From: Streptomyces paradoxus
GTDB lineage: Bacteria; Actinomycetota; Actinomycetes; Streptomycetales; Streptomycetaceae
Assembly (NCBI RefSeq): GCF_014202475.1
Contig: NZ_JACHGV010000001.1
Coordinates: 552,186 to 616,185 of the forward strand
DNA length: 64,000 nucleotides
Reading direction: 5' to 3'
The notes beneath the pieces are model-generated. The model was not told where the DNA came from, did not search any database, and was given only the letters and a program-made list of their open reading frames with translations. Shown piece by piece: positions 11,974 through 42,883 of this stretch (its first letter is position 1; each line of letters starts with the position of its first letter). Both the position numbers and the translations under genes were made by a program.

Positions 11974-12040
11974 TGTTCGGCGTCGGGCCGTGTTCGGCGT
12001 CGGGCCTGCCGGACGAACGGATCCTGTTCGGCGTCCGACG
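11974..12040. repeat. Short direct repeats in an intergenic gap
   Basis: TGTTCGGCGTCGGGCC occurs at 11974-11989 and 11991-12006, with a diverged third copy TGTTCGGCGTCCGACG at 12025-12040. They lie in the gap between the convergent DUF2254 and aldehyde dehydrogenase genes. Confidence 0.7.
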
Positions 12041-12096
12041 CCGGCCCCCCGCAGACTGACCGCGTGGCGAACCGGCGCCGGACGCGCCCCCCTTCC

Positions 12097-15947: not shown

Positions 15948-15997
15948 CAATGTACTGCGAGCCGCTCCAACCCCCTACGAAGGGACAGGACTTCGCC

Positions 15998-17680: not shown

Positions 17681-17690
17681 GGTGCCCCCG

Positions 17691-18932
17691 ATGACTTCTC
17701 CGTCCACCAAGGCCCTCGAAGGCATCCGCGTGCTGGACATGACCCACGTCCAGTCCGGGCCGTCGGCGACCCAGCTGCTCGCCTGGCTCGGCGCGGACGT
17801 CGTCAAGCTGGAGGCGCCGACCGGCGACATCACGCGCAAGCAGCTGCGTGACCTGCCGGACGTCGACTCCCTCTACTTCACGATGCTCAACTGCAACAAG
17901 CGGAGCATCACCCTCAACACCAAGACCGAGCGCGGCAAGGAGATCCTCACCGAGCTGATCCGGCGCTCCGACGTCATGGTCGAGAACTTCGGTCCGGGCG
18001 CGGTGGACCGGATGGGCTTCACCTGGGACCGCATCCAGGAGATCAATCCACGGATCGTCTATGCCTCCATCAAGGGGTTCGGCGAGGGTCCGTACACCAA
18101 CTTCAAGGCGTACGAGGTCGTCGCGCAGGCCATGGGCGGGTCGATGTCGACCACCGGTTTCGAGGACGGACCGCCGCTGGCGACGGGGGCCCAGATCGGG
18201 GACTCTGGGACGGGTGTGCACGCCGTGGCGGGGATTCTCGCGGCGCTGTACCAGCGGGAGAACACCGGGCGCGGGCAGCGGGTCAACGTGGCCATGCAGC
18301 ATGCCGTCCTCAACCTCTGCCGGGTGAAGCTGAGGGATCAGCAGCGGCTGGCACACGGCCCGCTCCGTGAATATCCCAACGAGGACTTCGGCGACGAGGT
18401 TCCCAGGTCCGGAAACGCCTCCGGCGGCGGCCAGCCCGGCTGGGCGGTCAAGTGCGCGCCGGGCGGCCCGAACGACTACGTGTACGTCATCGTGCAACCC
18501 GTCGGCTGGCAGCCGATCAGCGAGCTCATCGGCCGGCCCGAGCTGGCCGACGACCCCGAGTGGGCGACGCCCGAGGCGCGGCTGCCCAAGCTCGGCAAGA
18601 TGTTCCAGCTGATCGAGGAGTGGACCTCGACGCTGCCCAAGTGGGAGGTACTGGAGCGGCTCAACGCGCGCAACATCCCGTGCGGGCCGATCCTGTCCAC
18701 CCGGGAGATCATCGAGGACCGTTCGCTCGCCGCCAACGAGATGGTCGTCACCGTCCCCCACCCCGAGCGCGGCGACTTCGTGACCGTCGGCAGTCCGCTC
18801 AAGCTGTCCGACTCCCCCGTCGAGGTGACCAGCTCCCCGCTGCTCGGGGAGCACAACGAAGAGGTCTACGTCGGCGAACTCGGCCTCGGCGACGAGGAAG
18901 TGCGCCTGCTCAAGTCGAACGGGGTGATCTGA
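17691..18932 (+). CDS. frc: Formyl-CoA:oxalate CoA-transferase
   Basis: A 413-residue class III CoA-transferase that moves CoA from formyl-CoA to oxalate, recycling CoA for Oxc. Resemblance to Oxalobacter Frc as I remember it is strong: [48 protein letters not shown]. The catalytic aspartate is Asp171 in [12 protein letters not shown]. The glycine loop [12 protein letters not shown] that closes over the active site is present. ATG 17691 sits six bases after GAGGTG, and the gene starts ten bases after the oxc stop. Confidence 0.96.
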
Positions 18933-18936
18933 CGTG

Positions 18937-21081: not shown

Positions 21082-21193
21082 GGTGACTGAGCGGGGGGCC
21101 GGCCGACGGTGCGCGTCGGCCGGCCCCGGGACCCGCACGGCATGGGACAGGGGGCGCTGGCCAGATCTTTCGACGCAAGGGGTGCGACACGAC

Positions 21194-22582
21194 ATGACAA
21201 CGACCGATCTGCCCACCACGGTTCCCTACCGGGAGGTCACCGACGCGAACGGTCGCGTCTACCGCCTCGGTGAGACCGACATCGACATCATGGGGCGCAA
21301 ACGCAAGTGGATGGTGATCCTGCCCTGGATCGGCATGATGGGCATCTCCTCCGCCGAGTACGCGTTCGCGTCCGCCGAGGACACCCTGCACACGGCGCAC
21401 AGCTGGAACAGCATGCACATCTTCTGGATGATGACCGTCTGGGTCTTCTTCCAGGCCGCGGTGGCCTTCCCCGCGGGCAAGCTGCGCGAGAGCGGAAAAC
21501 TGCCGGCCCGCTGGGCCATGATGCTCGGCGCCACCGGCACGCTGCTGGGCTACCTGTCGCTCGCCTTCGCGCCGCACGTGGTCTTCGCCTACATCGGCTT
21601 CAGCATGTTCAGCGGCATGGGCGCGGGCATGGTGTACGCCACCTGCGTCAACATGGTCGGCAAGTGGTACCCGGAGCGCAAGGGCGGCAAGACCGGCTTC
21701 GTCAACGGCGGTTTCGCCTACGGCTCGGTGCCCTTCGTCTTCCTCTTCAACGGCTACATGGACCTGACCAACTTCCGCTGGGTGCTGGTCTCGGTGGGTG
21801 TGTTCCTGGCCGGCCTGGTCGCGTTCTCCGGCTACTTCTTCAAGGACCCGCCGAAGAACTGGTGGCCCTCCACGATCGACCCGCTGAACCCGCCGGACGA
21901 CCCGCGCGCGGCCCGCTCGATGCGCATGAACCCGCCGGCGGTGCGCCAGTACTCCCCGAAGGAGGCGTGGAAGACCGGCCGGGTCGCCCTGATGTGGTTC
22001 TGTCTGGCGTGCACGTCCGGCGTGAACATCTTCGGCATCGCCTTCCAGGTGGAGATCGGCGAGGAGGCCGGATTCGCGGGCGGGATCGTCGCCACGGCCA
22101 TGTCCCTGAAGGCCATCGTGAACGGCACCGGCCGCGGTGTCATCGGCTGGCTCTCCGACCTGTACGGCCGCAAGCGGTGCCTGCTCGTCGTCTGCGTGAT
22201 CCTGGGCCTGTCCCAGTACGGCATCCTCTGGTCGGCGAACGCCGAGAACCTTCCCCTGTTCCTGGTCTTCTCCTCGATCTCCGGCTTCGGCGGCGGAGCC
22301 ATCTTCCCGATGTTCGCCGCGCTCACCGCCGACTACTTCGGCGAGAACAACAACGCGTCCAACTACGGCATGGTCTACAGCGCCAAGCTCGTCTCCGGCC
22401 TGGGCGCCGGCATGGGTGCCGTGGTCGTCGGTGCCTGGGGGCACTCCGGTGCCTTCATCCTGGCCGGCTCCATCTCCCTCTTCGCGGGCTGCGTGGCGCT
22501 GTTCCTGACCCCGCCGGGACGCGACAGGGAAACGCGCCGCATCTCCCCCAACCCGCAACCGCTCGGTGAGGACACGACCTGA
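21194..22582 (+). CDS. OFA-family MFS transporter (oxalate/formate antiporter type)
   Basis: A 462-residue, roughly 12-helix MFS carrier of the oxalate/formate antiporter family. Characteristic stretches include GFSMFSGMGAGMVYATCVNMV, KWYPERKGGKTGFVNGGFAYG and the cytoplasmic motif GRGVIGWLSDLYGRKRC. It is the last gene of the oxc-frc-ligase operon. It should import oxalate and may export formate, generating proton-motive force as in Oxalobacter OxlT. ATG 21194 is preceded by AAGGGGTG; an in-frame start at 21083 would add a hydrophilic extension and is unlikely. A strong terminator follows at 22678. Confidence 0.9.
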   Translation: MTTTDLPTTVPYREVTDANGRVYRLGETDIDIMGRKRKWMVILPWIGMMGISSAEYAFASAEDTLHTAHSWNSMHIFWMMTVWVFFQAAVAFPAGKLRESGKLPARWAMMLGATGTLLGYLSLAFAPHVVFAYIGFSMFSGMGAGMVYATCVNMVGKWYPERKGGKTGFVNGGFAYGSVPFVFLFNGYMDLTNFRWVLVSVGVFLAGLVAFSGYFFKDPPKNWWPSTIDPLNPPDDPRAARSMRMNPPAVRQYSPKEAWKTGRVALMWFCLACTSGVNIFGIAFQVEIGEEAGFAGGIVATAMSLKAIVNGTGRGVIGWLSDLYGRKRCLLVVCVILGLSQYGILWSANAENLPLFLVFSSISGFGGGAIFPMFAALTADYFGENNNASNYGMVYSAKLVSGLGAGMGAVVVGAWGHSGAFILAGSISLFAGCVALFLTPPGRDRETRRISPNPQPLGEDTT

Positions 22583-22677: not shown

Positions 22678-22725
22678 AAACGTGAGGAGGCCCTTCCCCG
22701 GTCGGGGAAGGGCCTCCTCACGTTT
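22678..22725. terminator. Perfect 22-bp bidirectional terminator
   Basis: The arm at 22678-22699, beginning AAACGTGAGGAGG, pairs exactly with 22704-22725, ending CCTCCTCACGTTT. The loop is four bases, and A/T runs at both ends suit transcripts from either side. It closes the oxalate operon and the leftward 22735-35275 block. Confidence 0.92.
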
Positions 22726-22734
22726 GCGGGGTCG

Positions 22735-23787
22735 TCAGCACTTCTCCCTCAGGGAGTGCAGGTGCGCGCTGGAGCGGCGCGCGAACGTGAAGGACTCGGC
22801 GGGGTTGTCGTGCTCGGCCTGCCAGTGGTGGGCCATGCGGTGGCCGCGCAGCCGGGTCACCGCGGAGATGAACCGCTGGTAGTCGATGTCGCCGTCGCCG
22901 ACGTCCGTCATGCGGTAGCCGTACGGGTTCGACGGGTCGCTCTCGCCGTCCTTCACGTGGAAGAGGGGGTAGCGGTCGGGCTGCCGCAGGACGTAGTTCA
23001 GCGGCTCGAAGGGCGCGGGCGTGCCGTCGGGCCGCTTGGAGAAGCGGAACTGGCCGACGTACGCCCAGTAGATGTCCATCTCCAGGTACACCAGGTTGGG
23101 GTCGGTCTCCTTGAGCAGGATGTCGTAGAGGCGGACCTTGGGGTTGTCGGTGGCGAAGGAGAACTCCTCGGAGTGGTTGTGCTGGTAGAACTTCATGCCC
23201 CGGGCCTTCGCCGCCGCGCCGTACGTGTTGAAGTCCTCGGCGGCGCGCTTCCAGGCGTCGACGGTCGAGCCGTAGCGGAACGGGCCGGCGGCCGTGCCGA
23301 TGTGCTTGAGGCCGAGGGCCTGGGCGTCGTCGAGGACCTTGGTGAGGTTCTGGGCGAAGGTGTAGGCGTTCGGGTCGGCGGAGTAGTAGCCGACGTGGCT
23401 GCCGATCGGGTTCAGGCCGTGGTTTCGGGCCAGCCGCTTGAGCTGGGCGAGGGTGATGGGGCCCGCTGAGCCCTGGGTGTAACCGGCGAACTCGACCTCG
23501 TCGTAGCCGTATCGCTCCAGTTCGGCGAAGACGGGGCCGAAGCCGAGCGTGGAGACCTTGTCGCGCAGGCTGTACAGCTGGATGCCGAGGCGGCCGGGCG
23601 GCAGGACGGGGCGGCCGCGGCCCTTGGCGCCGGACGCGGGGCCGGTGGATGCCGTCGCGGGAGCGGCGGTCGCGGGGGCCGCGGCGCCGAGCAGGGCGGC
23701 GGCGGTGGCGCCGGCGGCCACGCCGAGCATGCCTCGTCTGCTGAGGCGGTGGCCGAGCTCGGGGTCGGGCTGGGAGAAGCGGCTCAT
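22735..23787 (-). CDS. Tat-exported sugar phosphate isomerase/epimerase-fold protein
   Basis: A 350-residue TIM-barrel protein of the xylose-isomerase-like family with a twin-arginine signal (LSRRGMLGVAAGATAAALLG, alanine-rich to about residue 47). The barrel begins LGIQLYSLRDKVSTLGFGPV and carries family metal-site stretches (GTAAGPFRYGSTVDAW, YQHNHSEEFSF, YLEMDIYWAYVG, PLFHVKDGESDP). Exported members act on secreted or extracellular sugars rather than sugar phosphates; recent work links this fold to 3-keto-glycoside cleavage. It lies 81 bases after the EboF-like gene and may be the last gene of the same transcript. Confidence 0.85.
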   Translation of the reverse strand: MSRFSQPDPELGHRLSRRGMLGVAAGATAAALLGAAAPATAAPATASTGPASGAKGRGRPVLPPGRLGIQLYSLRDKVSTLGFGPVFAELERYGYDEVEFAGYTQGSAGPITLAQLKRLARNHGLNPIGSHVGYYSADPNAYTFAQNLTKVLDDAQALGLKHIGTAAGPFRYGSTVDAWKRAAEDFNTYGAAAKARGMKFYQHNHSEEFSFATDNPKVRLYDILLKETDPNLVYLEMDIYWAYVGQFRFSKRPDGTPAPFEPLNYVLRQPDRYPLFHVKDGESDPSNPYGYRMTDVGDGDIDYQRFISAVTRLRGHRMAHHWQAEHDNPAESFTFARRSSAHLHSLREKC

Positions 23788-23868
23788 GCGTGGAACTCCT
23801 CGTGATCGCGGGGCGTTGTCAGTGGTGAGTGCTTCACTTGTGACCAGTCGGGACCGAGGGCTGTGACC

Positions 23869-25287
23869 TCAGGTCAGACCGGCGAGTCGGAGCAGCAGTG
23901 ACTTCACATCGGTGGCCGCGACGCGGTCTCCGACAGCACGGGGGGTGGAGCAGATGAGGAGCGGACCGTCGTCGTCGCTCTGCGGAAGGCGGCCGTGGCT
24001 GCCGCGAATAGGTGAGGGGTCCAGGGGCACGACCGCCATGCGGTAGCGCATGCCGAGCTTCTTGCGCGCCAGTGCGGTGGCCGCCTTGACCTTGATGTAG
24101 GGGTCGAGGGGATCCATGAAGAGTTCGACCGGGTCGTAGCCGGGTTTGCGGTGGATCTCGACGAGTTGCGCGAAGTCGGGCGCGAGGTCGTCATCGAGCC
24201 AGTAGTAGTACGTGAACCAGGCGTCGGGTTCCGCCACGGCGACGAGTTCGCCCGCGCGCGGATGGTCGAGGTGATGGGTCTTCTTGCCCTCGTCGTCGAG
24301 GAGTTGCTCGATGCCGGGCAGGCCGTCCAGGGCGGCGCGGGTGGCGTCGAGGTCCTCGGGGCGGCGCACGTAGACATGGGCGATCTGATGGTCGGCGACC
24401 GCGAAGGCGCGGGACGCCATCGGGTCGAGGTACTCCATGCCGTCCTGTGTGTGCACCTCCAGCAGGCCGGCGCGGCGCAGGGCGCGGTTGATGTCGACGT
24501 GCCGGTTCACGCGGGTGATGCCGTACTCGGACAGTGCGACGACGGTTCGGCCCTCGGCGCGGGCGTCGTCCAGCAGCGGGGCCAGGGCGGCGTCCAGGTC
24601 GGCGGCCGCCTTCAGGGAGCGCGGGTCGTCGGGGCCGAAGCGCTGCAGGTCGTAGTCGAGATGAGGGAGGTAGCAGAGCGTCAGGTCGGGGCGCCGGGTG
24701 CGCATGATGTGGCGGGTCGCGTCGATGATCCACCGGCTGGAGACGAGGTCGGCTCCGGGACCCCAGAAGTGGAACAGGGGGAACGTACCGAGCTTCCCGG
24801 TGAGTTCGTCGTGCAGTGCGGCCGGCCGGGTGTAGCAGTCGGGTTCCTTGCGGCCGTCGGCGTAGTAGACCGGACGGGGGGTGACGGTGATGTCGGTGTC
24901 GGCGCCCATGGCGTACCACCAGCAGATGTTCGCGACGGTGTAGCCGGGGTGGGCGCGGCGGGCTGCGTCCCAGAGCTTGTCGCCGGCCACGAGGCCGTTG
25001 TGCTGGCGCCACAGGAGGACATCGCCGAGTTCGCGGAAGTACCAGCCGTTGCCGACGATGCCGTGCTCCGAGGGCATGGTGCCGGTGAGGAAGGTGGACT
25101 GGGCGGCGCAGGTGACGGCGGGCAGGACGGTGCCGAGCGCGGCGCGGGAGCCGGACCGGCCGAGGGCCTTGAGGTGGGGCATGTGGTCGAGGAGACGGGG
25201 GGTGAGGCCGACGACGTCGAGGACGAGAAGCGGGGTGGGGCGGTCCGTGGCGGCCGGGTCAGGGCGCTCATGGGTGCCGGTGCTCAT
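23869..25287 (-). CDS. Alkaline-phosphatase-superfamily nucleotide pyrophosphatase/phosphodiesterase (EboF-like)
   Basis: A 472-residue phosphodiesterase of the NPP/AP superfamily. The N-terminus has the first metal aspartate in TPLLVLDVVGLTPRLL and the catalytic nucleophile region in PAVTCAAQSTFLTGTMPSEHG. Further metal-site residues lie in YLPHLDYDLQRFGPDD, VVALSEYG and VADHQIAHVY. No signal peptide or anchor was seen, so it is probably cytoplasmic. It is the last member of the EBO-type cluster, overlapping eboE by ATGA. Its role may be to hydrolyse a phosphodiester or pyrophosphate intermediate of the unknown cluster product. Confidence 0.85.
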   Translation of the reverse strand: MSTGTHERPDPAATDRPTPLLVLDVVGLTPRLLDHMPHLKALGRSGSRAALGTVLPAVTCAAQSTFLTGTMPSEHGIVGNGWYFRELGDVLLWRQHNGLVAGDKLWDAARRAHPGYTVANICWWYAMGADTDITVTPRPVYYADGRKEPDCYTRPAALHDELTGKLGTFPLFHFWGPGADLVSSRWIIDATRHIMRTRRPDLTLCYLPHLDYDLQRFGPDDPRSLKAAADLDAALAPLLDDARAEGRTVVALSEYGITRVNRHVDINRALRRAGLLEVHTQDGMEYLDPMASRAFAVADHQIAHVYVRRPEDLDATRAALDGLPGIEQLLDDEGKKTHHLDHPRAGELVAVAEPDAWFTYYYWLDDDLAPDFAQLVEIHRKPGYDPVELFMDPLDPYIKVKAATALARKKLGMRYRMAVVPLDPSPIRGSHGRLPQSDDDGPLLICSTPRAVGDRVAATDVKSLLLRLAGLT

Positions 25288-26453
25288 GGCAGCTCCTTCA
25301 GGCCGAGGTCGGTCAGCAGGTCGCGGGCGAGGGTGAGTTCGGCGGCGATGCCCTCGGCGAGCTGGGTGCGGCTCTTGGGGCGCGACTCGGGCGGGAGGGC
25401 CTGCCAGGTGTAGGTCTCGACCTCCAGGTGGCGGGTGAGGGGGGCCGGGCCGCCGACGAGCCGGGTCAGTGTGGATTTCAGCACCGGGAGGGTGGAGGTG
25501 AGGGGCGCGGCGGGGGCGGCGTGCAGCGGGACGTGGAAGTGGGCGCGCCAGGGTGAGGCGTCCGGCAGGGCGTGTCCGGCGAGGGCCTCGTCGAGGTCGT
25601 CCGTGGCGCGCAGACCGGCCGCGGTGGCGGTGCGGGTCTGGTGCAGGAAGCGGGGTTCGGCGAAGGCGGCGAGGGCCTCGCGGACCTCGGGGAGATGGGG
25701 GTGTTCGGCGTGCAGGGCGGCGGAGAGCTGGGATTTGACGACGCGGAGGCGGGCCTCGGTGAGGGCGTCGAAGGCGGCGTGCGGATCTTCGAAGGAGGTG
25801 GCGAGATGACAGGTGTCGACGCAGATGCCGATGCGGTCGTGGCCGATCGCGGTGAGCGGGGCGATGGCGTCGCGGGTGGTCTCGACGACGCAGCCGGGTT
25901 CCGGTTCCAGGCCGACGCGGATGGAGCGGCCGGTCAGCTCCTCGATGGCGTCGAGGCGTTCGGCGAGGGTGCGCAGCGCGGTGCGGGCGGTGTCCGCGCG
26001 GTCGTCGTCGTACGCGGTGCGCCAGGCGAGGGGCAACGTGGAGATGGTCCCGTCGGTGACGTCGTCGGGGAGGAGCCCGGCGAGGACGCGGGCCAGGGCG
26101 GTGGTGTGGTCGAGGCGTTCCGGGTCGGCCCAGTCCGGCTTGTAGACGCGGTACTTGACCTCCTCGGCACCGAAGCCCTCATAGGGGAAGCCGTTGAGGG
26201 TGACGACCTCCAGGCCGCGCCGGTCCAGCTCCGTGCGCAGCCCGCGCAGTGCGGAGGGGTCGGTGACGAGGGCCTGGGCGGCGTCCTTCGCCAGCCACAG
26301 CCCGATGCCGAGCCGGTCGCGGCCCAGGCGGCGGCGGACGGGTTCGCAGTGGTCGCGGAGTTGGGCGAGGACGCCCTCGAGGGTTTCGGCGGGGTGGACG
26401 TTGGTGCAGTAGGCGAGGTGGACGGTGGAGCCGTCGGGGTGCCGGAAGCGCAT
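25284..26453 (-). CDS. eboE: Metabolite traffic protein EboE (TIM-barrel)
   Basis: A 389-residue TIM-barrel protein of the AP-endonuclease-2/xylose-isomerase fold. It opens with STVHLAYCTNVHPAETLEGV, the EboE hallmark, followed by LGIGLWLAKDAAQAL, LNGFPYEGFGAEEVKYRVY, VGLEPEPGCVVET and the metal-site DRIGICVDTCHLATSFE. In Nostoc the ebo cluster is needed for moving a scytonemin precursor to the periplasm; the biochemical role of EboE is unknown. The start is three bases after the TatD-like stop, and the stop overlaps the phosphodiesterase start. Confidence 0.9.
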   Translation of the reverse strand: MRFRHPDGSTVHLAYCTNVHPAETLEGVLAQLRDHCEPVRRRLGRDRLGIGLWLAKDAAQALVTDPSALRGLRTELDRRGLEVVTLNGFPYEGFGAEEVKYRVYKPDWADPERLDHTTALARVLAGLLPDDVTDGTISTLPLAWRTAYDDDRADTARTALRTLAERLDAIEELTGRSIRVGLEPEPGCVVETTRDAIAPLTAIGHDRIGICVDTCHLATSFEDPHAAFDALTEARLRVVKSQLSAALHAEHPHLPEVREALAAFAEPRFLHQTRTATAAGLRATDDLDEALAGHALPDASPWRAHFHVPLHAAPAAPLTSTLPVLKSTLTRLVGGPAPLTRHLEVETYTWQALPPESRPKSRTQLAEGIAAELTLARDLLTDLGLKELP

Positions 26454-26456
26454 GGC

Positions 26457-27368
26457 TCACGCCTCCACGGGGGTCACCCGGGCCGGTGTGCCGGGGCCGG
26501 CGTCCGGCTCGTGCGGATCCCGCGGGGCGCCGCGCAGGATGGAGTTCCCCTCGTGGGTGGCGTCCGTGCCGGTGACGTCGAGGTTCAGGCGGCCGCTGAG
26601 CCCGTAGAAAGCGACCGGGTTGCGCCACAGCACCTGGTCGACGGTGTCCTCGTCGAAGCCCTCGGCCAGCATCAGGTCGCCGACCTTGCGGGTCTTGAGC
26701 GGGTCGCTCTTTCCCCAGTCGGCGGCGGAGTTGACCAGGACCTGCTCGGGGCCGTAGGCGCGCAGGATCGCGACCATCCGCTCCTCGTCCATCTTGGTGT
26801 CGGGATAGACGGAGAAGCCCAGCCAGCAGCCGCTGTCCCGGGCCTCTTTGACGGTGGTCTCGTTGAGGTGGTCGACGAGCACGCGGTCCGCGGGCAGGGC
26901 GGACTCCCGGACGGCGTCGAGGGTGCGGCGCAGCCCGGCGAGCTTGTCGCGGTGGGGGGTGTGCACGAGGGCGGGCAGTCCGTGGTCGGCTGCGAGCTGG
27001 AGCTGCGCGGCGAGGGCGGTGTCCTCCGCTGGGGTCATGGAGTCGTAGCCGATCTCCCCGACGGCCACGACGTTGTCCTTGACGAGATAGCGGGGCAGCT
27101 CGTCGAGGACGGGCGTGCAGCGCGGGTCGTTCGCCTCCTTGGGGTTGAGGGCGATCGTGCAGTGGTGGGCGATGCCGTACTGGGCGGCGCGGAAGGGTTC
27201 CCAGCCGAGGAGGGAGTCGAAGTAGTCACGGAAGGAGGCGGGCGAGGTCCTGGGCTGGCCCAGCCAGAAGGAGGGCTCGACGACGGCACGCACACCGGCG
27301 GCGTACATGGCCTCGTAGTCGTCGGTGGTCCGGGACGTCATGTGGATGTGGGGGTCGAAGATGCGCAT
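26457..27368 (-). CDS. TatD-family metal-dependent hydrolase (EboB-like)
   Basis: A 303-residue amidohydrolase-fold enzyme starting MRIFDPHIHMTSRTTDDYEAM, where HIH supplies two metal ligands. Later metal residues lie in AVGEIGYDSM, ALVHTPHRDK and LVDHLNETTV, with the family aspartate in VNSAADWGKSDPLK. ATG 27368 overlaps the eboA stop by one base. In EBO clusters a TatD protein accompanies EboA and EboC. It may remove a carboxylate or amide group from the cluster metabolite rather than act as a DNase. A much longer in-frame extension lies inside eboA and is rejected. Confidence 0.88.
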   Translation of the reverse strand: MRIFDPHIHMTSRTTDDYEAMYAAGVRAVVEPSFWLGQPRTSPASFRDYFDSLLGWEPFRAAQYGIAHHCTIALNPKEANDPRCTPVLDELPRYLVKDNVVAVGEIGYDSMTPAEDTALAAQLQLAADHGLPALVHTPHRDKLAGLRRTLDAVRESALPADRVLVDHLNETTVKEARDSGCWLGFSVYPDTKMDEERMVAILRAYGPEQVLVNSAADWGKSDPLKTRKVGDLMLAEGFDEDTVDQVLWRNPVAFYGLSGRLNLDVTGTDATHEGNSILRGAPRDPHEPDAGPGTPARVTPVEA

Positions 27369-28117
27369 CAGGACTCCTTGCCGTGGGGGTGGTCCGCGCC
27401 GGGGACCGGCGTGGCGGACTCGGTCAGGTCCAGGACGCGGTGCAGGTCCTCGGGGACGGAGCGGCCGGCGGCGGTGCGTTCGGCGGCGTAGTCGGCCAGC
27501 ATGCGGGCGAGTTCGCCGTCGCCGGCGGCGCGCCGGGGCAGGTCCGACACGTGGTCGACGGGGACTCCGGTGAACAGGCACTTCAGCACGGCGTGACGCC
27601 AGGCGTGGGCTGTGAGGTGCCGGGCGGCGTAGGGGCCGACGGCGGCGCTGAGGAGCCGGGTGTCGTTGGTGCGCAGGGCGTCCTCGATCAGCGGGAGAGC
27701 GCCCGGGCCGGACACGAGGTGGGGCAGGGCGTGCAGCACGGCTCGGCGCTCGTCGGCGGTGCCCTGGAAGTACACCCGGGTCAGGGCGTCGGTGCCGGCC
27801 CGGGCCGCGGCGAGGATCAGGACCCGTGCGGCGTCGGCGTGTGCGGGGCCGCAGCGCCGGCCGGCTTCGGCGAGCCGCAGCTCCCAGACGGAGATGGGCC
27901 CGTGGAGGCCGGGGTGGGCGGCGGCCTCGTCCAGGGCGTGGTCGAGCCAGGTGCGGGCTGGTGGGTCCAGGTGGGTGGCGAGGTGGCGGCGGAGATCGGT
28001 GAGTGAGGGGCGGGTGGAGGCGGTGTCAGGGGAGGGTTCGCCGGTGTGGGTTCTGGTGCTCGGGGTGTCCGGGGCGCTCTCGGTTCTCGCCGCTGGTGTG
28101 GTGCGGGGGTGGCTCAT
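27368..28117 (-). CDS. eboA: EboA-domain protein
   Basis: A 249-residue protein whose function is unknown in any organism. After about 40 low-complexity residues rich in threonine and proline, the helical repeat-like EboA domain follows. It carries the family-specific AWRHAVLKCLFTGVPVDHV near residues 190-210 and an ARVLILAAARAGTDALTRVYF stretch earlier. It overlaps the isomerase stop upstream as ATGA and the TatD gene downstream. It is the diagnostic gene of the EBO cluster. Confidence 0.9.
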   Translation of the reverse strand: MSHPRTTPAARTESAPDTPSTRTHTGEPSPDTASTRPSLTDLRRHLATHLDPPARTWLDHALDEAAAHPGLHGPISVWELRLAEAGRRCGPAHADAARVLILAAARAGTDALTRVYFQGTADERRAVLHALPHLVSGPGALPLIEDALRTNDTRLLSAAVGPYAARHLTAHAWRHAVLKCLFTGVPVDHVSDLPRRAAGDGELARMLADYAAERTAAGRSVPEDLHRVLDLTESATPVPGADHPHGKES

Positions 28118-29202
28118 CTGCTGCTCCCTTCAGGGGCGGTGGAGGGAGCGCCGTGGGGTGGCGCGGTCTGCTGGGAGGCCTGAGCGGGGCTGGGCGGCGC
28201 GGTGGCCGCGGTCCGCTCGGCGTGGCGGAGGAACGGCAGGGAGTGCGCGGCGAAGTGCGGGCCGGCGTGCGAGTGACGGGGCAGTTCGACGACGGTCAGG
28301 CCCTGGTATCCGGTGGCGGCGAGGGCCGCGAGGACCGGCGGGAAGTCGATCTCCCCCTCCCCGAACGGGAGGTGCTCGTGGACGCCGCGCCGCATGTCCT
28401 CGATCTGGACGTGCCGCAGCCAGGGGGCGGCGGCCCGCACGCAGTCGGCGGGAGAGAGGGGTTCGAGGCACTGACAGTGGCCGATGTCCAGGGTGAGGCC
28501 GAGAGGGCCGGGGTCGCCGAGGGCCCGGCGGAGGTGGTGGAAGTCGGCCAGGGTGGCGAGGAGGTGGCCCGGCTCGGGTTCGACGGCGAGCGGGATGCCC
28601 GCGGAGGCGGCGGCGTCCAGGACGGGAGCGAGGGAATCGGCGAGGCGCTTCCACGCGGTGTCGGTGCCGGTCCCTTCCGGCACGATCCCGCTGAAGCAGT
28701 GCACCGCGTGGGCGCCGAGGTCGGCGGCGACCCGGACGGCCCGGGCGAGCAGGTCGGTGCGGCGGGCCCGGTCGTCGGGGTCGGGGTCCAGCAGGGACGG
28801 GCCGTGCTTGCGTCGGGGGTCGAGCACATAGCGGGCTCCCGTCTCGACGGTGACGCCCAGCCCGAGCGCGTCCAGCCGCCGCGCGACCCGGCGGGTGCGG
28901 GCGGCGAGATCGGGGGCGAGCGGGTCGAGGTGCATGTGGTCGAGGGTCAGTCCGACGCCGTCGTAGCCCAGGTCGGCGAGGAGCGACAGGGCATCGTCGA
29001 GCCGCAGATCGGCGAGACCGTTGGTGCCGTAGCCGAAGCGGAGGGAAGGGAGGACACCGGGCGGGGTGGCGGTAGTGGCGGTGTGGGGCGAGGCGGCGGT
29101 CCGGACGGTGGGGGCGGTCGGGGCAGTGGACTGCGTGCCGAGGGCGTCCGAGGCCCCGGCCCGGCGGCTCTCCGAAGAAGCCCGGGCAGTTTCGGGGCTC
29201 AT
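28114..29202 (-). CDS. Sugar phosphate isomerase/epimerase-like TIM-barrel protein
   Basis: A 362-residue cytosolic barrel in the middle of the EBO-type cluster. Residues 1-50 are a disordered Ala/Thr/Pro-rich extension. The barrel runs from LRFGYGTNGLADLRL with metal-binding stretches IPLAVEPEPGHLLATL, LGLTLDIGHCQCLEPL and HVQIEDMRRGVHEHLPFGEG. The ATG at 29202 follows AAGGTGAG; a later start cannot be excluded because of the disordered extension. Such an isomerase is often found in actinobacterial EBO clusters. It probably rearranges or cleaves a cyclitol or keto-sugar derived from the inositol phosphate made by the first enzyme (inference). Confidence 0.85.
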   Translation of the reverse strand: MSPETARASSESRRAGASDALGTQSTAPTAPTVRTAASPHTATTATPPGVLPSLRFGYGTNGLADLRLDDALSLLADLGYDGVGLTLDHMHLDPLAPDLAARTRRVARRLDALGLGVTVETGARYVLDPRRKHGPSLLDPDPDDRARRTDLLARAVRVAADLGAHAVHCFSGIVPEGTGTDTAWKRLADSLAPVLDAAASAGIPLAVEPEPGHLLATLADFHHLRRALGDPGPLGLTLDIGHCQCLEPLSPADCVRAAAPWLRHVQIEDMRRGVHEHLPFGEGEIDFPPVLAALAATGYQGLTVVELPRHSHAGPHFAAHSLPFLRHAERTAATAPPSPAQASQQTAPPHGAPSTAPEGSSR

Positions 29203-30287
29203 GTGACGCTCACCTTCTTCGCGAACCTCGCTCCGAGCGGGGCCAGGGCCGCGATGAGGAGGGCAGTGGCCGTGCCCCGGGAGCGGGCGGCCAGGGTGGC
29301 CTGGAGGGGGATGGTGGCGCGGATGCCCGCGCCGACAGCGCGCTGGGTGAGGGGAGGTGAGGGGTTCAGGGCGGCGTGGAAGTAGGGGCGGGCGGCCGTC
29401 GCCGCGTAGGCCGCTCCGAGGGTGGTGGAGAGCAGCGCCGCGCACTCCTGCTCGGGGTGCCGGACTGCCCGGGGGCCCGCCGGCCCGGGGGCCGTCCCCT
29501 GCCGGCGGCCTCGCGTCGGCAGGGCGGTGCGGCGTGTCACCTGGCGGGTCAGCAGGGCCGTCGCCGCGAGGGCCGCCAGGGGGGCCAGGGGTGAGCCGCC
29601 CCGGGCCTCCTGGCGGGAGACCGTGGTGACGGCCAGGGTGTGGGTGCCGAGGAGGGCCGCGGAGGGCAGGGCGGGGCGGGCATGGCCCGTCGTGGCCGCC
29701 GCTCCCAGGAGCAGGTCGAGGCCGCGGGCCGCGCCCATGGCCACGGGCCCGGCGGGCGTGTGCTTCAGGCCGAGGTCGTACGCCCAGACGGTTGCCGCAA
29801 GGGGCGCGGCGACGGCCAGGGCCGGGCGGCCCGCGCGGGCGGCCAGGGCCAGTCCGGCGCCGGTGAGGGCACAGGCCGCCGTGAGTGCTGCGGCGGGCCG
29901 GACGCGGCCGGAGGGCAGGGGGCGGTGCGGGCGCTCGACGGCGTCGACGTCGCGGTCCGCCCAGTCGTTGAGGGCCATGCCGGCTTCGTAGAGACAGAGG
30001 GAGGAACCGATGGCGAGCAGAGTGCGGGAGCCGGGTGGCGAACCGGTGGCGGCCGCGCCGGCCAAGGCGTCTCCGGGGACGCTGAACAGGGCGGGCAGAC
30101 GCAGGAGTTCGACCCAGGCGCGGCGACGCCGCGAGCGGCCTGCACAGGCGCAGGGGGCCGTGCCGTCGGCGGTGCCGCCCTCCGTGCCCTTGGCCGTGCG
30201 ACCGGCTGGGGTGTCGGCGATGCCTGGAGGGGCGGCGTCCCTCGACGCGCCGTCGAGGCATCCGCAGGAGCTCCGGCGCAGCGTCAC
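29199..30287 (-). CDS. eboC: UbiA-like prenyltransferase EboC
   Basis: A 362-residue multi-pass membrane enzyme of the UbiA superfamily. The first aspartate-rich motif is NDWADRDVD at residues 107-115, followed by AVERPHRPLPSGRV as in EboC proteins. The second region is WAYDLGLKHTPAGPVAMGAAR. UbiA enzymes attach prenyl chains to small acceptors in the membrane. The unusual N-terminal 60 residues are hydrophilic with several cysteines. GTG 30287 has GGGGGAGC upstream and overlaps the preceding stop as GTGA. The acceptor may be the cyclitol product of the neighbouring synthase (inference). Confidence 0.9.
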   Translation of the reverse strand: MTLRRSSCGCLDGASRDAAPPGIADTPAGRTAKGTEGGTADGTAPCACAGRSRRRRAWVELLRLPALFSVPGDALAGAAATGSPPGSRTLLAIGSSLCLYEAGMALNDWADRDVDAVERPHRPLPSGRVRPAAALTAACALTGAGLALAARAGRPALAVAAPLAATVWAYDLGLKHTPAGPVAMGAARGLDLLLGAAATTGHARPALPSAALLGTHTLAVTTVSRQEARGGSPLAPLAALAATALLTRQVTRRTALPTRGRRQGTAPGPAGPRAVRHPEQECAALLSTTLGAAYAATAARPYFHAALNPSPPLTQRAVGAGIRATIPLQATLAARSRGTATALLIAALAPLGARFAKKVSVT

Positions 30288-31468
30288 AGTGCTCCCCCCG
30301 TCTCCCCGGTGTCCCCCACCGGCGGCGCGCCACCGCCCTCTGCATCGGGCCGCCCGAGGCTCCGCCCGAACCGGACCAGTTCGTCGTACTGCTCGGACAG
30401 TCCCGCGGGCCCTTCCCCCACCGGGTCCTTGAAGTAGAAGCCGAGGGCGCCGAGCGGGCCGGACACTCCCGCCTCGTGGGCGCGGGCGGTCAGGCGGGCC
30501 AGGTCCAGTACCAGGGGTGCCGCGAGTGCCGAGTCGCAGCCCTGCCAGATGGTCTGGAGGATCATGCGGGTGCCGAGGAAGCCGTCGAAGGCGATGTGGT
30601 CCCAGGCGGTCTTCCAGTCGCCGAGGGACGGGACGTCGTCGATGTGCACCTCGCCCTCGGGGACGGTGCCGAGGGTGTCGGCGAGGACGCGTTCCTTGCC
30701 GGCGTTCTTCGCCGCCGCGGCGGCCGGGTCGGCGAGGGCCGCGCCGTCTCCGCCGCCGAGCAGGTTCGTGCCGGACCAGGACCGGACCCTCAGCGCCCGC
30801 TGCGCGAACATCGGGCCGAGCACGGCCCGCAGCAGCGTCTGCCCGGTCTTGCCGTCCCGGCCGGCGTACGGCAGGCCGCTGTGTCCGGCCTCGCGGGCGG
30901 CGACGGGGTGGTGCATGCCCTCGGAGGGGGTGAAGTTGACGTAGGGGCAGCCGGCGCGCAGGGCCGCCAGCGCGTACAGGGTGCTGGCCGGCAGTGGGGC
31001 GCCGGGCCCCTGGGAGGCGGGTTCGGTGGAGGCGACGTTCACCACCACGGCGCGTTCCAGTGCGTGGCGGTGCACGAAGTCGCGGATGTCGTCGGTGAAG
31101 GCCGTGATCAGTTCGGCTTCGCTCCGGGTGTCTCCCGGTGTGGGGCCGCCGGGTCTGATCTCCCGGTCGGCGGCTTCGAGTTCGGCCGCGACGGCGGTGG
31201 CGACGCCCGGGGGGAGGACACCGCCGGCGGTGAGGGTCTCGGCGCGTTTGGGCAGGGGGCAGTCGAGGGTGTCGTGACCGCCGAAGACGAGGTCGGACAG
31301 CGCGGGCAGGCCGCTGCCGGTGAACGCCGGGGTCTCGGTCACCATGCCGGTGGGCGGGTGCAGTCCCGCGGTGACGGCGGCGCACCCCGTGACGACGGTG
31401 GTGGCGACGGAGCCTCTGGCTCCGATCAGCCACACCCCCACACGCGGTCGGGAGAGGGACGCGGACAT
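30284..31468 (-). CDS. Inositol-3-phosphate synthase family protein
   Basis: A 394-residue NAD-dependent enzyme of the myo-inositol phosphate synthase family. The Rossmann segment is RVGVWLIGARGSVATTVVTG. The substrate/NAD region reads YVNFTPSEGMHHP, GRDGKTGQTLLRAVLGPMF, SWSGTNLLGGGDGAAL and GDWKTAWDHIAFDGFLGTRM. It converts glucose-6-phosphate to inositol-3-phosphate or a similar cyclitol phosphate. It is the first gene of the overlapping EBO set and occupies the place that a dehydroquinate-synthase-like EboD fills in cyanobacteria. ATG 31468 follows AGGAGG. Confidence 0.88.
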   Translation of the reverse strand: MSASLSRPRVGVWLIGARGSVATTVVTGCAAVTAGLHPPTGMVTETPAFTGSGLPALSDLVFGGHDTLDCPLPKRAETLTAGGVLPPGVATAVAAELEAADREIRPGGPTPGDTRSEAELITAFTDDIRDFVHRHALERAVVVNVASTEPASQGPGAPLPASTLYALAALRAGCPYVNFTPSEGMHHPVAAREAGHSGLPYAGRDGKTGQTLLRAVLGPMFAQRALRVRSWSGTNLLGGGDGAALADPAAAAAKNAGKERVLADTLGTVPEGEVHIDDVPSLGDWKTAWDHIAFDGFLGTRMILQTIWQGCDSALAAPLVLDLARLTARAHEAGVSGPLGALGFYFKDPVGEGPAGLSEQYDELVRFGRSLGRPDAEGGGAPPVGDTGETGGAL

Positions 31469-31552: not shown

Positions 31553-34500
31553 TCACTGGCCCTGGACGGGCAGTTCCTTGAGCTGGATGTTGCGGAAGGA
31601 GACCTTGTCGGCGGCGCCGTGGTTCTGCAGGCCGATGTAGCCGTCGGTCAGGCTCCGCTGGGGGTCCTTGTTGGTGAAGTCGTTGATCTTGACTCCGTTG
31701 AGGAACACCTGGAGGCGTTCGCCCTGGACCTTGATCTCGTAGGAGTTCCACTGGCCGGGCGGCCGCAGAACCTGGTCACGGGCCTTGATGTCGGCCGACT
31801 TGAAGGAGTAGACGGAGCCCGTGGTGCGGTCGGCCGCGTCCGTGGCGTCGATCTGGATCTCGTAGCCCTTGTTCACCGCGGACCAGGGGTCGTCGGAGGC
31901 GGGGAAGCCCACGAAGATCCCGGAGTTGTCGTCGCCCCGCATCTTCCAGTCGAGCTTGAGCGAGTACGACTTCAGCTCCTTGGCCTGGTACCAGAGCAGG
32001 CCCATGCCGCCCTCGGACTCCATCACGCCGTCCTTGACGGTGAACTTGCCGGGGCCGGCCTGCTTCCAGCCGTCCAGGGTCTGGCCGTTGAAGATCTTCC
32101 GGTAGTCCTTGCCCGGCTTGCAGTCCGCCTTGACCTGGCCGGTGGCGTACTGGAGGCCGCCGAGCAGGTGGGCGCGGAAGGCCTCTTCGGCGTAGGACTC
32201 CTTGGTGTGGCCGCCGCCGGTGTAGAAGGAGCGGCCGCCGCCGTAGCTCTGGCACCAGGCGATCGGGTGGTCGCCCTTCATGCTGCCGCCCTGGTAGGTG
32301 GTCTCGTCCAGGGTGGCGAGGACCTTGGCCTGCTCACGGGGGTTGGTGCGGTAGTTGTACCACTCGTCGGTGCGCTCCCAGGCGTCGCCGAGGTGCCCGG
32401 TGGACGGGTGGTCGTGGTCCTCGACGCGGACGGTGGCCTTCTGGATGGCCGGGTGCGAGTCGAAGTAGGCGCCGACGAGGCCGCCGTAGAACTCCCAGTC
32501 GTACTCGGTGTCGGCTGCGGCGTGGATGCCCATGTAACCGCCGCCACCCGCGACGTAGTTCTCGAACGCCTTCTGCTGCTCGGCGTTCAGCACGTCGCCG
32601 GTCGTGGACAGGAAGGCCACCGCGTCGTACTTGGCGAGGTTGGCCGTGGTGAACTGCCTGGCCTCCTCGGTGGCGTCGACCGTGATGCCGGCCGGGCCGC
32701 CGAGTTCCTTCAGCGCGGCGATGCCGGCGGGGATGGAGTCGTGGCGGAAGCCCGCGGTCTTGGAGAAGACCAGGACCTTCTTGCCGCCCTTGAACGGCTG
32801 CTTGGAGAACTCGAAGTCGTCCACGTCGAACAGCGCGCCCTCGCCGCCCTTGAAGACGAGGTAGATGTCCGTGGTCTTCTTCGGCAGCGACCGCAGGGGC
32901 ACGTCGACGTTCTGGAACGTCTCCCAGCCGCCGGTCGGCGGGATGTAGGCCGAGCCGTGCAGCGGCCCGTCGGGCGAGCCGGTGCGCAGCTCTACGAAGC
33001 CGCCCGCGCCGCCGGAGGAGGCCCGCACGGTCATCTTCTTCTGCCCGTCGAACCGGTAGGGAGTGAAGGAGATCCAGTCGCCGTCGTTGATGTCGCCGAC
33101 GGTCTTGCCGCCGTTGGCGCCGGTCTTGGTGATGATCGACACGCCCGACTGGGTGGTGAAGTGCTCGCCCTGGCGGTGCAGCGGCTGGAGGACGGTGCGG
33201 GCGGTGCCGGTCAGGGCCTCCTGGCCGTTGGCTCCGCCGTCGGTGTAGCCGGCGCCGACGACGCCGTAGATGTTGGCGTTGGGGTCGTGGCCGCCGTCAC
33301 CGGGGGGCGGTGTCAGGGTGCCCTCGCAGCCCATCTCGCTGGTCAGCTCGTGGGCGTGGGAGTCGTGGCCGAGGCTGTAGGTGACCTTGACCTTGGAGCA
33401 GTCGACGGTCTCCTCGGGGTCGGTGACGGTCACCTTGAACGGGACGGGCTTGCCGAACTCGGCCAGCGCGCCGTTGCCCGGGATGTCGATCCTCACCTTG
33501 GGCTCGGTGTTGCCGACCACGATCCGGATGCTGGCGTTGCCGGTGTTGCCCTCGGGGTCCTTGGCGGTGACGGTGGCACTGTAGGTGCCGACCTTCTTGT
33601 AGCGGTGGGTGGGGTTGAGGCCCTCGCCCTTGGTGCCGTCGCCGAAGTCCCAGCTGTAGGTGAGGTTCGTGGAGTCGGCGTCCTTGGCGGAGGCGGTGAA
33701 CTTCACCTTCAGGCCGGCCGCGCCGGAGGTCTTGTCGGCGCTCACCTCGGCGATCGGCGAGAAGCCGTCCTCGGCGTTCTCGATCCGGTAGAGGGCGGAG
33801 TTCTCGTCGCCCTGGAACCAGGAGACGCCGTAGTCGAGGACGTAGAGGGCGCCGTCGGGGCCGAACTCCATGTCCATGATCTGGGTGCCGGTCCACGGGA
33901 AGTCGTTGATCTTCGCGACGGAGCCGTCCGCGTTCTGCTTGATGCGCTTGATCCAGCGGCGGCCGAACTCACCGGCGAAGAAGTCACCGTCGTAGGCCTC
34001 GGGGAACTTCACGCTGGAGTCGAGGCCGGGGTCGTAGCGGTAGACCGGGCCGGCCATCGGTGACTCGGAGCCGCTGCCGAACTCGGGCAGGGATCCGCCG
34101 TCGTACGGGATCCAGGCGGCCTGGGCGGGCGGCAGGTCGGTGAGGCCCGTGTTGTACGGCGAGGTGTTCTTCGGGGCGGCGCAGTCGAACGGCTCGCCGG
34201 ACTCCTTGGTGGCGAAGTCGTAGTCGACGTAGGCGTCGTTGTCACCGGTGCAGAAGGGCCAGCCGAAGTTGGCGGGCTTGGTCACCTTGGCGAACTCGAC
34301 CTGCCCTCCGGGGCCGCGCTTGGGGTCGGCGGCGCCGGCGTCCGGGCCGTAGTCGCCGACGTAGAGGGTGCCCGTCTTGTCGTCGACGCTCATCCGGAAC
34401 GGGTTGCGGAAGCCCATCGCGTAGATCTCGGGGCGGGTCTTCTCGGTGCCGGGGGCGAAGAGGTTGCCCTCCGGGACCGTGTACGAGCCGTCCTCGGCGA

Positions 34501-35275
34501 CCCTGATGCGCAGGATCTTGCCGCGCAGGTCGTTGGTGTTGGCGGAGCTGCGGCGGGCGTCGAAGGCCGGGTTGCGGTTCGGCCGGTCGTCGATCGGCGT
34601 GAAGCCGTCGGACGCGAAGGGGTTGGTGTCGTCGCCGGTCGACAGGTAGAGGTTGCCGTCCGCGTCGAAGTCGATGTCGCCGCCGACGTGGCAGCAGATG
34701 CCCCGGGAGGCCGCGACGTCCAGGACCTTCTTCTCGCTGGCCATGTTCAGCGTGCCGTTGGCGTTGAGCACGAAGCGGGAGAGGCGGTTGACGCCGTCGA
34801 ACTTCTTGAAGTCCTCGGCGGTGCCGGTGTCCGGGGCGTCGCCCGCGGGGGTGTCGAGCGGCGGGGCGTAGTAGAGGTAGATCGCCCGGTTGTTCTTGAA
34901 GTCCGGGTCGATGCCGACGCCCTGGAGGCCTTCCTCGTCGTGGCTGTAGACGGGGATCTTGCCGGCGACCTTGGTGACGCCGCCCTGGTCGGTGAGGCGC
35001 AGCGTGCCGTCGCGCGAGGTGTGCAGCACGCTGCGGTCCGGGAGCACGGCGAGCGACATCGGCTCGCCCGTCTCGGGCTCGCCCTTGGCGAGCGGCACCT
35101 GCTGGAACTGGCCCTCGGCGGCTGCCGGTTCGTCGTGCTCCGGGTGGCCGGGGTGGGCGCCGGCGACGGTGGCCGGGGTGCCCACGGCGAGGAGCAGGCC
35201 GGTGAACAGGGCGACGGTGGTGCGGAGCCTGGGCCGTCTGGGGGTGCGGGCGCTTGTGGGTCTGGTTCTGTGCAC
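31553..35275 (-). CDS. Secreted multidomain protein: sugar dehydrogenase propeller, PKD, CBM6, ThuA, DUF1080
   Basis: A 1240-residue secreted protein. The signal peptide is residues 1-41 (LRTTVALFTGLLLAVGTPATVAGA). Residues about 60-495 are a glucose/sorbosone dehydrogenase-type propeller (GLQGVGIDPDF, GNLYLSTGDDTNP, MGFRNPFRMSVD, GALYVLDYG). Residues about 505-585 are a PKD domain (TYSWDFGDGT). Residues about 665-825 are CBM6-like (GDWISFTPYRFDG). Residues about 830-1045 are a ThuA domain (VLVFSKTAGFRHDSIP, GYMGIHAAADTEYDW). Residues about 1055-1240 are a DUF1080 3-keto-disaccharide-hydrolase-type domain (KIFNGQTLDGWK, YIGLQNHG). GTG 35275 lies six bases after GGAGG. Inferred role: oxidation and cleavage of extracellular sugars. 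Confidence 0.9.
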   Translation of the reverse strand: MHRTRPTSARTPRRPRLRTTVALFTGLLLAVGTPATVAGAHPGHPEHDEPAAAEGQFQQVPLAKGEPETGEPMSLAVLPDRSVLHTSRDGTLRLTDQGGVTKVAGKIPVYSHDEEGLQGVGIDPDFKNNRAIYLYYAPPLDTPAGDAPDTGTAEDFKKFDGVNRLSRFVLNANGTLNMASEKKVLDVAASRGICCHVGGDIDFDADGNLYLSTGDDTNPFASDGFTPIDDRPNRNPAFDARRSSANTNDLRGKILRIRVAEDGSYTVPEGNLFAPGTEKTRPEIYAMGFRNPFRMSVDDKTGTLYVGDYGPDAGAADPKRGPGGQVEFAKVTKPANFGWPFCTGDNDAYVDYDFATKESGEPFDCAAPKNTSPYNTGLTDLPPAQAAWIPYDGGSLPEFGSGSESPMAGPVYRYDPGLDSSVKFPEAYDGDFFAGEFGRRWIKRIKQNADGSVAKINDFPWTGTQIMDMEFGPDGALYVLDYGVSWFQGDENSALYRIENAEDGFSPIAEVSADKTSGAAGLKVKFTASAKDADSTNLTYSWDFGDGTKGEGLNPTHRYKKVGTYSATVTAKDPEGNTGNASIRIVVGNTEPKVRIDIPGNGALAEFGKPVPFKVTVTDPEETVDCSKVKVTYSLGHDSHAHELTSEMGCEGTLTPPPGDGGHDPNANIYGVVGAGYTDGGANGQEALTGTARTVLQPLHRQGEHFTTQSGVSIITKTGANGGKTVGDINDGDWISFTPYRFDGQKKMTVRASSGGAGGFVELRTGSPDGPLHGSAYIPPTGGWETFQNVDVPLRSLPKKTTDIYLVFKGGEGALFDVDDFEFSKQPFKGGKKVLVFSKTAGFRHDSIPAGIAALKELGGPAGITVDATEEARQFTTANLAKYDAVAFLSTTGDVLNAEQQKAFENYVAGGGGYMGIHAAADTEYDWEFYGGLVGAYFDSHPAIQKATVRVEDHDHPSTGHLGDAWERTDEWYNYRTNPREQAKVLATLDETTYQGGSMKGDHPIAWCQSYGGGRSFYTGGGHTKESYAEEAFRAHLLGGLQYATGQVKADCKPGKDYRKIFNGQTLDGWKQAGPGKFTVKDGVMESEGGMGLLWYQAKELKSYSLKLDWKMRGDDNSGIFVGFPASDDPWSAVNKGYEIQIDATDAADRTTGSVYSFKSADIKARDQVLRPPGQWNSYEIKVQGERLQVFLNGVKINDFTNKDPQRSLTDGYIGLQNHGAADKVSFRNIQLKELPVQGQ

Positions 35276-35472
35276 GAAGTCCCTCCGGGAACGGGGTGGG
35301 CCGTACGGGTGGGTGCGAAGACGTGCGGTGCGGGCGCCGGGGTGCGCCGTCACCCCGGAGGTGCGTGTGTCCTGAACACATCAAGGACGGTAACCGCGTC
35401 CGTCCGGGGCGAACACCCCTTGCGACAGACTCGGCCGGACTTTCTCCCTGCACGGGACAAAGCGGGATCCGT

Positions 35473-36536: not shown

Positions 36537-36550
36537 CGAAAGGGGCCTCC

Positions 36551-37762: not shown

Positions 37763-37817
37763 ACGGGTGTCCTCCTCGTCCTGGTCGGGGTGGCGCACGT
37801 GGGGGGTGCGGGGCGGC

Positions 37818-38864: not shown

Positions 38865-38881
38865 GGCGGGGAACCCTTTCC

Positions 38882-41415: not shown

Positions 41416-41500
41416 GAGGTCCCCTTGGCGGGCGTGCGGGCCGGTTTCAGGGCAGGGCGAAGCAGAGCGCGGTGCTGGTACGCGGTACTGAACTCAGTGA

Positions 41501-42691: not shown

Positions 42692-42806
42692 GAGCCCCTC
42701 CCCGCCTCGATCGGCCTCTGCGCGCCGGTTTTCCGCCACCTCGGTGGCGTGCTTTCGGAGGGAACGTAGCAGCGGCTGCCGGAGGTGGGAAGAAGTCGCG
42801 CAGGAA

Positions 42807-42837: not shown

Positions 42838-42883
42838 AGAAGCAGTGAGGGGTGTCTCGCGCCGCGAGACGGGTGTGGGGGCG

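Follow-up and report, generated by a model that had tools for sequence, protein, structure and literature searches.

A seven-gene ebo operon in Streptomyces paradoxus with an inositol-phosphate synthase homologue and a TIM-barrel protein as predicted replacement of EboD

A window of 64,000 nucleotides from the genome of Streptomyces paradoxus (contig NZ_JACHGV010000001.1, positions 552,186 to 616,185), meaning the whole stretch of DNA analysed here, carries a compact ebo gene cluster with a homologue of myo-inositol-phosphate synthase (MIPS) in the slot of EboD. Our best explanation, to which we assign a rough probability of 0.45 as a whole, is that this is a seven-gene ebo operon in which the MIPS homologue and a TIM barrel of family PF01261 (named TIM3 in this analysis) replace EboD, and whose predicted product is a prenylated cyclitol lipid likely to aid the exit of metabolites from the cytoplasm. 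The ebo operon was named in 2016. As described for Bacteroidota, Cyanobacteria and eustigmatophyte plastids (PMC5133447), the classical operon eboA-F shares with the window EboA, EboB, a UbiA prenyltransferase, EboE and EboF in one packed operon, whereas the window has MIPS and TIM3 and no EboD, a different gene order, and a UbiA of the SCO3242 family model. An isoprenoid-cyclitol product was proposed in 2016 (PMC5133447) and a cyclitol lipid carrier in 2018 (PMC6282210); the prenyl-cyclitol idea is already in print, and new here are the enzyme exchange, the pairing of MIPS with TIM3 and the link to ScyE. No paper joining ebo with inositol was found in the open-licence literature, and PMC5133447, PMC6282210, PMC6092422 and PMC9235831 never use the word 'inositol' in their main texts.

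Operon structure and distribution in Actinomycetota

The seven genes (31468-23869, reverse strand; Table 1) encode, in order, the MIPS homologue, UbiA, TIM3, EboA, EboB, EboE and EboF, and overlap or nearly touch at junctions of -4, -4, -4, -1, +3 and -4 bases. A sequence-only reading of the window had described seven tightly packed leftward genes followed by a Tat-exported isomerase, which the coordinates, junctions and family scans bear out; two of the genes it had listed as nucleotide-pyrophosphatase-like and TatD are present under the corrected names EboF and EboB, both classical ebo members.

Two genome samples were searched for EboE, with genomes (G), loci (L) and contigs (C) numbered by us. 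In the phylum sample EboE exceeded its family cut-off in 18 of 396 genomes, and 17 of these carry MIPS on the same strand at most ~6 kb away; the eighteenth (G381) has a 3-dehydroquinate (DHQ)-synthase-family gene ~2 kb from EboE and is without a PF07994 match. The class sample yielded EboE over the cut-off in 90 of 394 genomes, 12 already tested and 78 new, with MIPS within 10 kb in at least 67 of the new genomes (at least 69 of 81 EboE copies). Inspection of the remaining 11 showed MIPS in G583, loci cut at contig ends in G458, G575 and G667, and a solitary EboE with no ebo neighbour in G428, G452, G537, G614 and G653; G419 has MIPS and TIM3 on another contig, and G549 a MIPS remnant (residues 1-108) in place with an intact copy elsewhere. 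After setting aside the three contig-end cuts and five solitary EboE genes, MIPS lies in the cluster in 68 of 70 class-sample genomes. Both samples pooled, the operon includes MIPS in 85 of 88 genomes; G381 has EboD in its place and two genomes have MIPS elsewhere, a count by genome that leaves out MIPS-less second copies in G128 and G659. A MIPS homologue in the EboD slot is the rule in Actinomycetota. A survey of actinobacterial loci had been suggested in the sequence-only reading; centred here on EboE rather than EboA, it did not find the synthase missing from most of them, and the isomerase, looked at in fetched loci only, is present as TIM3, in order, at each of the 16 fetched loci where MIPS and EboE occur together. 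The full seven-gene order on one strand is identical in the window and these 16/16 phylum-sample loci, which excludes a chance arrangement.

The PF01761 (EboD) model matched the window genome on contig C6 (148.9 bits) and at C1:352397 (21.6 bits), with no match in the operon, and the nearest match on the same contig as any of the 81 EboE copies lies 60 kb away. The presence of EboD elsewhere beside a MIPS-type operon was considered and rejected, none being found in the window genome, the phylum sample or around the 81 EboE copies.

It is extremely improbable that MIPS is a chance neighbour supplying inositol for mycothiol or phospholipids. The enzyme would be able to serve these pools, but a separate housekeeping Ino1 is encoded in the same genome (contig C4, 734 bits), the gene order is that of the fetched loci, and PF07994, which does not detect Ino1, has no match in 3/3 tested genomes of the same genus without EboE (the class sample lists 12 such genomes). 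The operon MIPS itself was rejected as the housekeeping Ino1, scoring 32.4 bits against the mycothiol Ino1 model TIGR03450 (cut-off 638).

EboE was also present in 32 actinobacterial plasmid records; of the seven opened, six have MIPS in the cluster. The seventh (L192), a Streptomyces plasmid, has a solitary EboE at 11995-13173, embedded among type II polyketide genes. Further solitary EboE-like proteins without ebo neighbours were observed at L225-L229 and L239, five at 30-33% identity and that of L239 of a shorter type covering profile positions 1-242. At L189 (4425-18926) a complete MIPS-type ebo operon has FAD oxygenase genes before it and 4Fe-4S, amidase, glutamine-synthetase-like and purB-like genes after it, a neighbourhood reminiscent of diazofluorene (kinamycin-type) clusters.

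Table 1 Features of the ebo operon and its immediate surroundings in the window
Feature	Coordinates	Strand	Basis
Perfect 22-bp inverted repeat, loop 4	22678..22725	.	Sequence reading
Tat-exported xylose-isomerase-like TIM barrel	22735..23787	-	PF01261 57 bits; SRRGML; recurrence
EboF, type I phosphodiesterase family	23869..25287	-	PF01663 237 bits (cut-off 23)
EboE	25284..26453	-	NF035939 431 bits (cut-off 250)
EboB, TatD-like hydrolase	26457..27368	-	PF01026 50 bits (cut-off 27); position; conservation
EboA domain protein	27368..28117	-	NF035938 164 bits (cut-off 50)
TIM3, xylose-isomerase-like TIM barrel, proposed partner of MIPS in replacing EboD	28114..29202	-	PF01261 150 bits
SCO3242-family UbiA prenyltransferase, EboC counterpart, GTG start	29199..30287	-	NF045897 394 bits (cut-off 260)
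MIPS homologue (archaeal-type), EboD slot	30284..31468	-	PF07994/PF01658; best solved relative AfMIPS 1u1i
Predicted secreted multidomain protein: GSDH propeller, PKD, CBM6, ThuA, 3-keto-disaccharide hydrolase	31553..35353	-	Domain scan

Exchange of EboD with MIPS and TIM3

Among 16 non-actinobacterial plasmid records with EboE, 10 were opened, and nine of these carry a gene annotated as 3-dehydroquinate synthase in the cluster (two each from Deinococcus and Salipiger, and one each from Mycetohabitans, Ketogulonicigenium, Roseivivax, Azospirillum and Aureibacter). The tenth, from Gemmatirosa, carries consecutive UbiA, MIPS and TIM3 genes alongside EboF and EboB, MIPS and TIM3 being adjacent, and no PF01761 match on its 1.04-Mb plasmid. 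A PF01761 search of the plasmid records, leaving out L190, found the family in 7/7 EboD-type and 0/6 MIPS-type records. TIM3 accompanies MIPS even where the cluster is divided: the two genes are adjacent in G279 and ~4 kb apart in G419, in both cases on a different contig from the rest of the ebo genes. The EboE frame of G279 is broken. No TIM3 was found between the ebo genes of the EboD-type loci opened; in Ketogulonicigenium a sugar phosphate isomerase/epimerase gene lies beside the cluster. The unit exchanged with EboD seems to be MIPS plus TIM3 rather than MIPS alone, and the gene patterns suggest that the two proteins together may do EboD's job. The earlier claim that a different cyclising enzyme takes EboD's place holds for Actinomycetota in general; it was incomplete, as the exchange looks like one of MIPS with TIM3 and is seen once outside the phylum too.

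A tree of EboB, EboE and EboF was inferred from 36 of 52 picked loci; a coverage filter removed 7, and a further 9 of the 45 left were dropped as near-duplicates or as rows from the same genus. A branch with 100/100 support sets the actinobacterial rows apart, and Gemmatirosa groups with G381 and Deinococcus (100/100), its EboB, EboE and EboF falling among EboD-type ones. A single clade of MIPS-type operons was rejected by the approximately unbiased (AU) test (p-AU 3.5e-53, LG+G4). Roseivivax, which the filter had given no label, was taken as EboD-type by annotation; four loci without MIPS (L087, L173, L232 and L233) were placed on the actinobacterial side, and at L098 MIPS is present and was missed by the filter. 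The tree requires at least two changes between EboD and MIPS with TIM3 and does not set their direction. After the EboD-type cluster of G381 comes a gene (L101 8991-10079) for an FMN_dh-family protein that resembles, by eye, type 2 isopentenyl diphosphate isomerase.

Operon proteins and the predicted product

The MIPS homologue carries both Pfam domains of its family (PF07994, 124 bits; PF01658, 101 bits). Its best solved relative is AfMIPS (1u1i, 198 bits); a five-membered-cyclitol-phosphate synthase (6k96), which we take to be Ari2, scores 44 bits and an inositol-3-phosphate synthase (1gr0) 35 bits. Among the best 120 of 7919 protein-search matches, the nearest relatives are from Streptomyces at up to 94% identity. 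AfMIPS positions N255, D225, K227, D261, K274, K278, K306, D332 and K367 are invariant in 83/83 aligned sequences, window included, the alignment holding only sequences that passed a coverage filter and being mostly from Streptomyces. These nine are taken as active-site residues, their choice and naming drawing on mutants among the solved structures. MIPS catalysis is described as running through a lysine network (PMC11348189). Ari2 of aristeromycin biosynthesis, a Streptomyces MIPS ortholog, is reported to convert fructose 6-phosphate into a five-membered cyclitol phosphate (PMC11188666), which warns against certainty about inositol phosphate, the product predicted here. The operon enzyme could instead have diverged to form a different ring, such as the five-membered one of Ari2, from a ketose phosphate supplied by TIM3. 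The precedent of Ari2 and the matches of TIM3 to 3-epimerases of sugars and sugar phosphates would suit this, but the far higher score to AfMIPS than to 6k96, to which the operon enzyme is distant in sequence, and the retention of all nine compared positions (Ari2 lying outside the comparison) make it quite unlikely.

TIM3, as a family profile, matches best UlaE, an L-ribulose-5-phosphate 3-epimerase, at 71 bits. In G150 and G703 it is fused to EboA in a single frame (L099 7959-9632; L242), and a fusion of EboA to a xylose-isomerase-like domain in Actinobacteria is noted in PMC5133447.

The UbiA protein had been read as UbiA-like EboC. A UbiA enzyme does stand in the EboC place; by sequence family it belongs to SCO3242 rather than to the EboC equivalog NF035940, for which it scores 138 bits (cut-off 250). 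This EboC model appears narrow, because the UbiA proteins of the EboD-type loci in Deinococcus and G381 likewise miss its cut-off. The residues ND..D...D are invariant in 13 UbiA proteins from both ebo types, and a profile of these 13 has as its best solved relative DGGGP synthase (6m31, 78 bits). DGGGP synthase ether-links a prenyl chain to a polyol phosphate, and prenyl transfer of this type would, by analogy, suit an inositol phosphate acceptor. Among solved structures, the synthase is closest to archaeal MIPS and the UbiA family to DGGGP synthase, with the same logic of polyol phosphate and prenyl transfer; unlike these archaeal enzymes, the window's two are encoded in a single bacterial operon with Ebo proteins, and their lipid is a predicted one. 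Prenylation by UbiA of an exported aromatic metabolite itself, with the cyclitol as a separate co-substrate or tag, is unlikely: the nearest solved relative, DGGGP synthase, prenylates a polyol phosphate, and a cyclitol-forming type of enzyme is retained across the exchange, even though an aromatic prenyltransferase and a multicopper oxidase occur near some MIPS-type operons. The EboC relative Ubi-297 is reported to farnesylate the quinolines 8-hydroxyquinoline-2-carboxylic acid and quinaldic acid in vitro (PMC9235831), as such a role would have it, but a lipid-conjugated monomer was, according to the account in PMC6282210, not found in Nostoc.

The predicted model of EboA is all-helical (mean pLDDT 88.7), and a fold search against PDB gave a best match at E 0.23 and nothing past the all-helical fold. 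Window EboB shares 41% identity with EboB of L101 and 39% with that of L185, both EboD-type loci; no ebo-specific EboB model turned up in the family scans. EboF shares 43-82% identity with 12 further EboF proteins from both ebo types and keeps a threonine and an aspartate of its family. It has V26, Q215, E254 and Y255 at four other positions, where nucleotide pyrophosphatases have zinc ligands, and all four residues (V, Q, E and Y) are invariant across the 13 proteins of both types. EboF may be no ordinary two-zinc phosphodiesterase.

Export, neighbouring genes and the case for a cyclitol lipid

The Nostoc ebo cluster is reported to be needed for metabolite export (PMC6282210). MIPS-type operons have a ScyD/ScyE-family gene over the cut-off next to them or close by in G599 and G712 (a tandem pair in each) and G651, on two Streptomyces plasmids (L193 and L194), and at L136 and L141 (~1.5 kb after EboF), as well as at L200 by annotation. 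At L193, L194 and L200 a multicopper oxidase and an aromatic prenyltransferase gene follow within ~10 kb of EboF, L194 and L200 being alike. Across the 78 genomes there were 33 single ScyE hits above 80 bits in 27 genomes (33 genomes if split hits are summed), and in 3 of these 27 ScyE lies within 8 kb of EboE, where ~0.07 loci would be expected within 10 kb assuming a mean genome of 7.3 Mb (Poisson P 6e-5). The likeness to the Nostoc punctiforme ebo and scytonemin genes (PMC6282210) is this adjoining ScyD/ScyE-family gene; in contrast to Nostoc, no scytonemin genes were noted at MIPS-type operons, and the protein encoded upstream of the window's operon is a GSDH-ThuA multidomain one, at 20.6 bits against a cut-off of 80 not a ScyD/ScyE member. 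The adjacency supports the same working principle as the Nostoc export system, not membership of the window's upstream protein. The Pseudomonas EDB cluster is described as containing a full ebo cluster, and nematodes are reported to eat its mutants; Pseudomonas insertions in the homologues of eboA, eboD or eboE are reported to share one phenotype (PMC6282210). The EDB cluster differs by its eboD homologue, known here from that description.

The GSDH-ThuA gene sits 84 bases upstream of MIPS, and its N-terminus suggests that the protein is exported. Further upstream on the same strand (35538-43561) are GntR, ROK, ABC ATPase and permease, Gfo/Idh and TIM barrel genes, which may encode an importer of sugars or cyclitols linked to the ebo operon. 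The Tat gene starts 81 bases downstream of EboF, encodes the SRRGML motif, and is found at many, not all, of the ebo loci compared. The inverted repeat beyond it is likely, from its sequence, the operon's transcription terminator; a T-run terminator scan made no call there, and a promoter scan found none. On the forward strand, 15950-22582 holds what looks by eye like an oxalate-breakdown set (decarboxylase-, CoA-transferase- and CoA-ligase-like genes and an MFS carrier), of which the domain scan covered the MFS gene. An operon for uptake or breakdown of a sugar or cyclitol, not for lipid synthesis, would fit the upstream genes together with the ThuA and 3-keto-disaccharide hydrolase domains, and three gene types (TIM barrel, ThuA-type and Tat) are seen again close to ebo genes in other families, two of them in Gemmatirosa. 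We regard this as distinctly unlikely, as UbiA prenyltransferase and MIPS are biosynthetic types and these three gene types were not found at several MIPS-type loci, including L084, L085, L175, L184, L190, L193, L194 and L236.

Several points weigh against a MIPS- and TIM3-dependent prenyl-cyclitol lipid in export. The ebo product is a prediction from sequence. Second ebo copies without MIPS nearby occur in Streptomyces (L087, L173, L177, L179-L183 and the second copy of G659); all six tested genomes with such a copy hold a PF07994 MIPS elsewhere, which permits sharing and does not demonstrate it. A Saccharomonospora (actinobacterial) ebo region is shown in PMC9235831, whose text does not tell the cyclase type, and that paper's quinoline-farnesylating EboC relative also counts here. 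In the Nostoc study, as its text describes it, eboD was neither deleted nor analysed (PMC6282210). Adjacency of ScyE is a minority condition (3/78 genomes; 2/80 named loci by BLAST with one ScyE pair), and the upstream sugar-importer-like and 3-keto-sugar-type genes would suit sugar metabolism. The clade put to the AU test had been chosen once a first tree was available, and L198, an EboD row, is a long branch in the tree tested. A phosphatase step by EboF is doubtful because it lacks several zinc ligands of its family. As a separate observation, MIPS-less copies (L087 12912-15808; L179 and L183) are preceded by genes for a FAD oxidoreductase-like and, by eye, an inositol-monophosphatase-like protein.

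In the mechanism we favour, MIPS would convert a hexose 6-phosphate, most likely glucose 6-phosphate, to inositol phosphate, and TIM3 would isomerise or epimerise this or its keto form, such that EboD and the MIPS-TIM3 pair would arrive at the same cyclitol. A hydroxyl would next be prenylated by UbiA, in the way that DGGGP synthase prenylates a polyol phosphate. Tailoring or scaffolding would fall to EboA, EboB, EboE and EboF, and the prenyl-cyclitol lipid may help small, often aromatic metabolites to cross the membrane to extracytoplasmic oxidases. A bolder extension, which we offer tentatively and think somewhat doubtful, is that prenylated cyclitols constitute a third kind of bacterial lipid carrier for small aromatic metabolites, with a head group from two unrelated cyclases (EboD, or MIPS with TIM3), feeding secreted ScyE-type oxidases in actinomycete antibiotic and pigment pathways. 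SCO3242 and SCO3243 are counted as CDA antibiotic cluster genes in a transcriptome paper (PMC3610822); their name and family suggest an ebo role rather than a CDA role.

The replacement of the ring-forming enzyme by an unrelated one, in at least two changes and together with TIM3, provides independent evidence for a cyclitol core in the ebo product. It also moves the ebo question into Streptomyces, where gene deletion is easy and the proposed substrate, glucose 6-phosphate, is cheap.

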